Assembly (NCBI GenBank): GCA_903894145.1
Contig: CAITPB010000132.1
Coordinates: forward strand, 1-33,563
Length of the DNA: 33,563 nt
Direction of reading: 5' to 3'
Origin: Candidatus Firestoneibacteriota bacterium
Lineage (GTDB): Bacteria; Oederibacteriota; D2-FULL-39-29; CAIOVX01
Under the pieces are notes generated by a model. That model did no database searches, had not been told where the DNA came from, and worked only from the letters and a program-made list of their open reading frames with translations. Positions within the stretch are counted from its first letter, which is position 1. Every line of letters starts with the position of its first letter. This document shows positions 16,304 to 31,991 of this stretch, piece by piece. The translations under genes and the position numbers were made by a program.

Positions 16304-16424
16304 TTTATTTAGTTTATCACGAAGAACACCCCGCCATTCATGGCGGCACGTGATGTCCGCCAAGGAGGCACAGCCTCCGGCGGAAATTCGGTGTGAAAGA
16401 TATTTTTACCAACCGAAACAAAAC
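16304..16424 (+). repeat. Copy 1 of a dispersed structured intergenic repeat
   Basis: TTTATTTAGTTTATCACGAAGAACACCCCGCCATTCATGGCGG...CCGCCAAGGAGGCACAGCCTCCGGCGGAAATTCGGTGTGAAAGATATTTTTACCAACCGAAACAAAA; aligns to the reverse complement of 31892..31991. Confidence 0.85.
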
Positions 16425-16510
16425 AAGAAAAGCATTTCCTGATAAGCCTCGATATTGTTCTGTAAGTTTCACTGACAAGCAGGATATGTCGGCCTTAAGA
16501 CAGCAATAAT

Positions 16511-17635
16511 TTATTTCTTCTTTTGCCTGATTTCCTTCCTGAATTTGTCAACTGCCGCCAGCGCGTCTGCGGTGCCTATGGCGCGGAGAGCTTGAACTAT
16601 CTTATCCTGTGTGTAATTAAGCTTGCTTGACATAAGGGCTTTTGAAAGAGCCTGCACTGACAGGTACGCCTTTCTGTCGAAACGTCCAAGAGCTTCAGCG
16701 GCCGCAGCCCTTACGAACTCATCCTCATGACTTAGTGAAGCCTCGAGCACGGGAACCGAACGCGCAGGATCAACTCCAATTTCGCCTATTACCCTCAGGA
16801 CATTTAGGCGTAGAACTATGTCTTCATTCGCAGCCAGTTCGCAGAGATATGGCACAGCCTCAAACGACGATTCGCCGAGATTGCCGAGCACTTTCAAGGG
16901 AATTATCCTCCCCTCCTTGCTTTCTGTTTTCAACACTTTAAGCACATCGGCGGCCGATGCGGATGCCCGCGAGCCGAATTTGTTAAGGCAATTAAGAGCC
17001 GCATCTCTTATGCTGCCCGGATTCTCTAGCCTGATTATTACGGTCTGAATCTCCGGCGCAGTCGGTTTTGCCGCTGTGCTCAGGGCTCTCAGGCAAAATA
17101 TTGTCATTTTTTCTTCATTGGAAGCTTTCAAAATTCTTGAAATATGAGAGGCTGCTTCATCATTTTCAGGGTCGATTTTCAGCATCAGTGAAGCCGCCGC
17201 GGCAGAGTGGACTCTGTCAGAAGTTAAGAATTTTCTTAGTTCGGGAATTGCTCCTTTTCCTGCGTTTAGACAAATATCAACCCAGGGGTTTCTTTCGGCA
17301 AAAGTAACATCTTCTATTACTTTTATTGCCGGGCTTATGGCAGAGGCTCCAATATTTATTAAGACTTTAAGCGCCTGGTCATCTGGCTGGTTGGCGCTGC
17401 TGTAAGACCTTTCAATGAGTCTTCTTGTAATATTTTCTTTAAGACCTGCATCAGAAGAATCGAACCGGTAGAAAGCTTTTTGCCTTATCTCAGAATCCTG
17501 GCAGACAAGGTCATCAAACAGCTCCGCGCTGGTTGTTTGTGAAAACAGGGAGACAGCCAAGAATACAACAAGCCACGAAAAAAGAGTCAAAGTTTTGATA
17601 CGCATATCCCGATTATACTTATTGGCAATGCTCAC
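16511..17635 (-). CDS. Exported HEAT-repeat protein
   Basis: Signal-like MRIKTLTLFSWLVVFLAVSLFSQ (likely true start near 17605); repeated HEAT units e.g. AVPYLCELAANEDIVLRLNVLRVIGEIG, SVPVLEASLSHEDEFVRAAAAEALGRF. Confidence 0.82.
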   Translation of the reverse strand: MSIANKYNRDMRIKTLTLFSWLVVFLAVSLFSQTTSAELFDDLVCQDSEIRQKAFYRFDSSDAGLKENITRRLIERSYSSANQPDDQALKVLINIGASAISPAIKVIEDVTFAERNPWVDICLNAGKGAIPELRKFLTSDRVHSAAAASLMLKIDPENDEAASHISRILKASNEEKMTIFCLRALSTAAKPTAPEIQTVIIRLENPGSIRDAALNCLNKFGSRASASAADVLKVLKTESKEGRIIPLKVLGNLGESSFEAVPYLCELAANEDIVLRLNVLRVIGEIGVDPARSVPVLEASLSHEDEFVRAAAAEALGRFDRKAYLSVQALSKALMSSKLNYTQDKIVQALRAIGTADALAAVDKFRKEIRQKKK

Positions 17636-22022: not shown

Positions 22023-22068
22023 ACCTTATGAACCTTATAAACTTTATTAACCTTATAAACTTTTTATG
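22023..22068. repeat. 9-bp tandem array A (~5 units)
   Basis: ACCTTATGA|ACCTTATAA|ACTTTATTA|ACCTTATAA|ACTTTTTAT|G. Confidence 0.9.
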
Positions 22069-29963: not shown

Positions 29964-30008
29964 TTCAAAAGTTCATAAGGTTCATAAGGTTTGTAAAGTT
30001 TATAAAGT
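29964..30008. repeat. 9-bp tandem array B (~5 units)
   Basis: TTCAAAAGT|TCATAAGGT|TCATAAGGT|TTGTAAAGT|TTATAAAGT. Confidence 0.9.
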
Positions 30009-30030
30009 GAAAGAAAGTATGGCATAAAAC

Positions 30031-30063
30031 AAAAGAGCCGGGAATCCCGGCTCTTCTTTTTTT
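30031..30063. terminator. Bidirectional Rho-independent terminator between DEAD-box gene and pfp
   Basis: AAAAGAGCCGGGAATCCCGGCTCTTCTTTTTTT; perfect GC stem with A/T tracts on both sides, between convergent genes. Confidence 0.93.
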
Positions 30064-30065
30064 CC

Positions 30066-30101
30066 ACCTTATGAACCTTATTAACCTTACAAACTTTTTA
30101 T
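30066..30101. repeat. 9-bp tandem array C (4 units)
   Basis: ACCTTATGA|ACCTTATTA|ACCTTACAA|ACTTTTTAT. Confidence 0.9.
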
Positions 30102-30105
30102 GGAA

Positions 30106-31812: not shown

Positions 31813-31863
31813 GAAATTCCCTCCAAAATAAAATAATTTAAACAGTTTTTATGCCGGAACAAT

Positions 31864-31895
31864 AAAAAACTGCGGCCTGAAGGCCGGAGTTTTTG
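31864..31895. terminator. Rho-independent terminator of the grx-FTR-miniprotein operon
   Basis: AAAAAACTGCGGCCTGAAGGCCGGAGTTTTT; stem CGGCC/GGCCG with flanking A and T tracts. Confidence 0.8.
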
Positions 31896-31991
31896 TTTCG
31901 GTTGGTAAAGATATAATTCATGCCGAATTTCCGCCGGAGGCGGACATCCCCGCCATTAATGGCGGGGTATTCTTCGGCATAACGAAATAAA
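31892..31991 (-). repeat. Copy 2 of the dispersed structured intergenic repeat
   Basis: Minus-strand reading TTTATTTCGTTATGCCGAAGAATACCCCGCCATTAATGGCGGGGATGTCCGCCTCCGGCGGAAATTCGGCATGAATTATATCTTTACCAACCGAAACAAAA; homologous to 16304..16424. Confidence 0.85.

Follow-up and report, generated by a model that had tools for sequence, protein, structure and literature searches.

Short palindromic repeats of Candidatus Firestonebacteria as probable transposase-less derivatives of IS200/IS605 elements

Introduction

The window analysed here is a 33,563-nt stretch of DNA (contig CAITPB010000132.1, assembly GCA_903894145.1) from Candidatus Firestonebacteria, and it holds two similar palindromic stretches in opposite orientation. 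An earlier note, made from the letters alone, had read them as a folded element of the MITE, REP/BIME-like or structured RNA kind. What kind of element are they, where do they begin and end, and do they move? The palindrome-associated transposable elements (PATEs) of the archaeon Haloquadratum walsbyi offer a point of reference. In the portion of their published description available to us, they have near-terminal palindromes and no MITE-type terminal inverted repeats, do not duplicate their target, are too short for a transposase, have ends related to IS605-type elements, and carry palindromes that are themselves targeted by small mobile repeats (PMC3119063).

Results

Copies and distribution

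Positions 16304-16424 are homologous to the reverse complement of 31892-31991 (BLAST E 2.9e-18, 75% over 120 positions), as the earlier note had seen. It had known of two copies; with either as query, many more places were found in the same genome (1.88 Mb, 283 contigs, 87% complete). For a covariance model, ten copies were aligned, most of them with hairpin II reduced to its simplest version; the model detected more than 20 clear copies there, about 20 of them full, plus several fragments. Outside this genome the counts are lower bounds, 23 candidates having been scored in each genome: at least 19 to 23 copies in each of three sister species of the same genus, at least 22 in the top genome of another family of the order, and at least a small number in one more family of the phylum. 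A 22-letter core pattern searched through 84,980 species matched 35 places, every one named Candidatus Firestonebacteria. One locus of another phylum (L100, G130) shows the same architecture: it has TTTAT and GAATACC-hairpin-GGATGAA, and its right end carries the pair GAAG/TCAC. With lengths of 110-206 nt, full elements leave no room for a transposase gene, and no coding gene was found inside them. Subfamily D is shorter, about 76 nt, lacks hairpin I and has no recognisable left guide.

Limits and architecture

Alignment of the copies with their flanks gave sharp limits: TTTAT precedes the element, and variable DNA follows it. At its right end the element has TTTCAT, GCTCAT or TTTTAT, depending on the subfamily. 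From the left, about 8 nt are followed by the 5' arm of a helix P1 (ATGCCGAA and variants), a four-base guide, hairpin I and GATG; then come an optional hairpin II, AAT, the P1 3' arm, about 30 nt, a second guide, the right-end hairpin and a short tail. The limits first drawn were too short at both copies, and at copy 2 they had left out the right-end hairpin (Table 1).

Table 1. Features of the two repeat copies in the window and what each assignment is based on
Feature	Position	Strand	Basis or remark
Copy 1, whole element (very probably a PATE)	16309-16514	+	206 nt, subfamily A-like, nested insertions; limits from sister-species empty site and family alignment
Copy 1, left target pentamer TTTAT (CL)	16304-16308	+	host DNA kept at left flank; G001 empty site
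Copy 1, P1 5' arm ATCACGAA	16316-16323	+	
Copy 1, left guide (GL) AACA	16325-16328	+	directly 5' of hairpin I; IS608 guide rule, read by eye
Copy 1, hairpin I (CCGCCAT tc ATGGCGG)	16331-16346	+	left-end hairpin; sequence, fold, family covariation
Copy 1, hairpin II	16356-16384	+	optional nested palindromic module, fixed site GATG^AAT
Copy 1, P1 3' arm TTCGGTGT	16387-16394	+	
Copy 1, second small repeat, contains CTGTAAGTTTCACTGACAAGCAGGATA	16424-16486 (limits approximate)	+	inserted before right-end hairpin; same sequence in L114
Copy 1, decayed right-end hairpin TGTCGGCCTTAAGACAGCA	16487-16505	+	by-eye alignment to ACTCCGGCCTTCAGGCCGCAGT; empty-site end at 16514
Copy 2, whole element (very probably a PATE)	31862-31986	-	125 nt, subfamily A; best covariance-model match, 156 bits
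Copy 2, left target pentamer TTTAT	31987-31991	-	sequence
Copy 2, P1 5' arm ATGCCGAA	31973-31980	-	
Copy 2, left guide (GL) AATA	31968-31971	-	element +16 to +19, IS608 guide positions
Copy 2, hairpin I CCCCGCCATTAATGGCGGGG	31948-31967	-	left-end hairpin
Copy 2, hairpin II module, shortest form TCCGCCTCCGGCGGA	31930-31944	-	
Copy 2, P1 3' arm TTCGGCAT	31920-31927	-	
Copy 2, right guide (GR) AAAA	31891-31894	-	
Copy 2, right-end hairpin ACTCCGGCCTTCAGGCCGCAGT	31869-31890	-	terminator-like on both strands

Folding and covariation

Both copies fold far better than dinucleotide shuffles (copy 1: z -5.7, 0 of 200 shuffles as good), and hairpins I and II are present as the earlier note had written them. 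Its claim of a compensatory change in the outer arms between the two copies failed. In the homologous register of P1 (ATCACGAA with TTCGGTGT), copy 1 has the mismatches C/T and A/G where copy 2 has G-C and C-G, and the pairing proposed instead, CACGAA with TTCGgTG, requires a bulged G and joins non-homologous bases. A new CGTGAT nearby (16349-16354) is also fully complementary to the ATCACG of the copy 1 5' arm; the two enclose hairpin I, and theirs is the pairing of the predicted fold. Copy 1 extends to 16514 because the second small repeat splits its body from its own right-end hairpin. It is a rearranged, partly decayed member of the family.

At the level of the family, covariation was present and is real. 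The palindromes near both termini, hairpin I and the right-end hairpin, each covary. Among 49 distinct native copies, 93% of stem cells pair, compared with 31-40% once the partners are shifted 1-3 columns out of register, and both sides have changed in 171 cells against 54 in shuffles; the alignment behind these figures was fitted to the model and so favours structure.

In subfamilies A, B and C, as well as in a second family of the order, hairpin II occupies one fixed position, GATG^AAT. It is lacking in five copies (C143, C175, C45, C259, C251) and variable in others. Thirteen of the 17 matches to its core in the genome lie within these elements, and C190 is the sole clear free-standing module there. 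As an optional module with a fixed position, hairpin II explains the palindromic indel between the two copies.

Other small repeats occur within the elements. The second small palindromic repeat (CTGTCAGTTTCACTGACAAGCAGGATA type) is found in copy 1 and in the C138 copy (L006), where a related repeat sits within hairpin I; in L114 the sequence also adjoins the right-end hairpin. A different short insert (AGCCTGTCCGCCAATCTTTT...) is present in the right-end hairpin loop of several f2 copies (L230, L232, L258; G004).

The termini have no MITE-style inverted repeats, though the first 4-6 nt pair internally: in nearly every subfamily they match the stretch directly before the right guide, forming a helix that we call P0. 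The summed best match was 51, compared with 34.5 for shuffled partners, and 0 of 200,000 shuffles did as well, a figure that is not an exact probability since the subfamilies are related. A helix linking the two tips is not known to us from IS200/IS605 elements, and P0 appears to be undescribed so far.

Guides and cleavage sites

Within the IS608 guide, A+16 and A+17 pair with T-3 and T-4 of the target (PMC5934647). The published IS608 guide/cleavage sequences AAAG/TTAC and GAAT/TCAA fit a pairing of guide to site of 1:2, 2:1 and 4:4, the G4:C4 part of which we infer from these sequences. The same rule (G1:C2, G2:C1, G4:C4) was applied to the repeats. The left end of subfamily A has AATA at +16 to +19 facing TTAT, and the right ends show the pairs AAAA/TTAT, GAAA/TCAT, GACA/TCAT, AAGA/TTAT, AAAT/TTAA, CAAT/TGAA and GAAG/TCAC. 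Within the genus the guides are AANA or GANA. The rule is satisfied at 39 of 39 right ends and 29 of 30 left ends, the one failing pair belonging to subfamily G; the tetranucleotides were read by eye, and that of subfamily I is a choice among three hairpin registers. Only 4 of 200,000 shuffled reassignments of the right ends were equally good (146 of 200,000 when subfamily I and L100 were left out).

Insertion sites and recent movement

Thirty of 31 subfamily B copies follow TTTAT. One of the copies, C259 (L070, G000), interrupts a nitroreductase gene at codon 5. When its flanks are joined, the first 64 residues match nitroreductase with 69.8 bits, and the site is uninterrupted in all three sister species (G001, G002, G003), where the join is base-exact and the reading frame is restored. 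Copy 1 also has an empty site, in G001: the window reads CCGTTTAT|element|TTCTTCTTTTGCC, and G001 reads CCGTTCAT|TTTTTCTTTTGCC. The target-site duplication proposed for checking in the earlier note was found neither at the base-exact C259 site in three species nor at the copy 1 site in G001. At the site syntenic to copy 2 the element is absent in all three sisters, but the flanks have diverged so far that the junction could not be placed, and this site was rejected as a base-exact case. The full element is likewise missing in relatives at sites C199, C207, C222 and C233, whose junction alignments are gapped or mismatched and were not counted as base-exact, whereas the insertion at site C9 is common to this genome and G003.

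A 111-nt subfamily B element occurs in 21 letter-identical copies across four species, with flanks unrelated to each other. The aligned flanking genes of those species are only 68-87% identical at two loci, and the identical copies therefore point to recent movement.

These sites bear directly on two of the earlier readings. A classical MITE of a DDE transposon, in which the arms would be the terminal repeats and TTTAT(T) the duplicated target, is extremely improbable: subfamily A does show TTTATT at each end and the P1 and P0 arms resemble inverted repeats, but in nearly all copies of subfamilies B and C the left TTTAT faces a right TTTCAT or GCTCAT, so that the ends are not duplicates, DDE-type ends are lacking, and the C259 empty site, with neither gain nor loss, refutes a MITE for subfamily B. 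If the repeats were structured non-coding RNAs, or scattered terminators maintained because of how their RNA folds, this would account for the covarying stems and for a right-end hairpin that is terminator-like on both strands. We nevertheless consider this reading very unlikely. The same loci are occupied or empty depending on the sister species, the 21 identical copies share no flanking sequence, one copy disrupts the nitroreductase gene, and the covariation of guide and cleavage site sits at a DNA boundary. The repeats have no Rfam match at gathering thresholds, and a tRNA is the sole Rfam match in the window.

The surroundings of some copies are repetitive. TTAT-rich arrays built of 9-bp units, for example ACCTTATGAACCTTATAAAC, lie at 22023-22068 and 29968-30102 of the window, and the sister species have arrays of this kind at dozens of loci. 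Copies C227, C226 and C251 and copies of subfamily D lie in or adjoin such arrays, which may be landing sites for the repeats. Subfamily D also forms head-to-tail pairs (L089, L207, L211, L212, L215, L217), in which the right end CTTAT is the TTAT target of the next copy.

An autonomous relative and the host enzymes

An autonomous IS200 element was found in G014, from another family of the phylum (L177). It encodes a 161-aa tnpA with 150 bits to NCBIfam IS200/IS605. Its left end starts after TTTAT with GAAAACC-hairpin-GGATGAA; its right end is GAAACCCC-hairpin-...TTCAT, followed by unrelated DNA, at five junctions. A short element of G032 aligns to both the left end (E 1e-8) and the right end of the G014 element.

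A canonical IS200/IS605 tnpA was not found in the genome of the window, its three sisters or the f2 genomes searched (assemblies 80-98% complete), where only REP-type relatives were present. No tnpB (PF07282) match was obtained in the genome of the window, and a TnpB or guide-RNA element was rejected on this ground. The check for a TnpA-REP gene suggested in the earlier note did identify one gene in this genome (L060, G000:C71, 1423-1974 and flanks; 183 aa, 98 bits to NF047646), whose ends do not match the repeats; it is flanked by its own unrelated REP palindrome GCATCAGCACTGCTGATGC. The RAYT-type genes of G001 and G002 are flanked by GGGACAGCGCC or GGGGACAGACACC motifs. At the RAYT-type loci L186 (G002) and L266 (G001), the flanks carry GGGGACAGACACCTTTAAT motifs in place of classic REPs.

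It is quite unlikely that the repeats are REP/REPIN-like elements moved by such a host RAYT (TnpA-REP). RAYT-type enzymes are the only Y1 transposases found in the genome of the window and the only kind found in G001-G008, and the copies are palindromic and mostly intergenic. Nonetheless, different palindromes or motifs flank the RAYTs of G000, G001 and G002, the element's ends are missing from every Y1 locus read in G000-G008, GTAG or GTGG does not stand at the hairpin foot, and insertion at TTTAT with a TCAT right end obeys the IS200 rule.

Discussion

IS200/IS605 elements are marked by a fixed short target 5' of the insertion, a fixed right end, insertion without duplication and hairpins near the ends. 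The repeats obey the guide rule and share their ends with the tnpA-bearing element of G014, which the short element of G032 also matches. Therefore, both repeats of the window are very probably PATE copies, that is, transposase-less IS200/IS605 derivatives, which a TnpA supplied in trans would move. Of the earlier note's interpretation, a mobile, folded, covarying and non-autonomous element remains; its MITE part does not hold in the strict sense, its REP part does not agree with the palindrome around the REP-type gene, and structured RNA is unsupported.

A TnpA of the IS200/IS605 type, presumably an HUH enzyme with a single tyrosine, would bind the hairpins of both ends, hairpin I on the left and the right-end one, at a time when, we suppose, the top strand is single-stranded. 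The four bases directly 5' of each hairpin would pair with the cleavage sites, TTAT on the left and TCAT or TTAT on the right. The enzyme would then excise the element as single-stranded DNA, which would be joined 3' of a new TTTAT without duplication of the target. In the predicted fold, P1 would enclose hairpin I, with the optional nested palindrome within P1, and P0 would join the first bases of the element to those before the right-end hairpin, closing the ends onto each other. P0 may thus be a new structural feature that ties both ends of a single-stranded transposon, and it is testable. We regard as unlikely the further proposal that the single strand folds end to end through P0 so that the cleavage sites lie adjacent, and that the mover in trans is a RAYT or another enzyme that escaped recognition. 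Judging from its sequence, the right-end hairpin may act secondarily as a terminator, and an effect on neighbouring genes is possible.

The source of the enzyme is a puzzle. Letter-identical, recent copies are present in four species, yet the only relatives of TnpA in the genomes searched are of the REP type. It is possible that the enzyme was missed through assembly gaps, but this is unsatisfying for G002, which is 98% complete, has at least 11 identical subfamily B copies and has one Y1 gene, of REP type by sequence and flanks.

The DNA-guide rule of IS608 has so far been known from few elements and from engineering work. The repeats provide a natural data set for its evolution: where guides differ from one subfamily to the next, the cleavage sites differ with them. 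Like IS608, they insert 3' of a short target, have one hairpin per end with a four-base guide directly 5' of it (on the left at +16 to +19), and follow the same pairing rule (PMC5934647). Unlike IS608, they have neither tnpA nor tnpB, their target is TTTAT instead of TTAC, and their guide/cleavage pairs differ (AATA/TTAT, GAAA/TCAT and others) with complementarity kept. The G014 element resembles them in its TTTAT left flank, its GAAAACC-hairpin-GGATGAA left end and its GAAAC-hairpin-TTCAT right end; it differs in having a tnpA, in its stem sequences and in belonging to another family of the phylum. With REP, BIME and REPIN sequences the repeats share shortness, palindromes, intergenic positions and related Y1 enzymes, whereas they lack the GTAG/GTGG guide, are discrete two-ended elements inserted precisely, and differ from the flanks of the host RAYT.

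The closest known systems are the PATEs of Haloquadratum walsbyi. The repeats described here come from a bacterial phylum, Firestonebacteria. They possess P1 around the left hairpin and the covarying, tip-linking P0, which do not appear in the part of the Haloquadratum PATE description available to us (PMC3119063), and in three subfamilies, as in a second family of the order, their nested palindrome keeps to a single fixed position. Even so, they largely match the PATE definition, as far as that part gives it, including the reception of smaller repeats inside the palindromes (PMC3119063), and the CTGTCAGTTTCACTGACAAGCAGGATA-type repeat within them resembles the SMR-A repeats of Haloquadratum.
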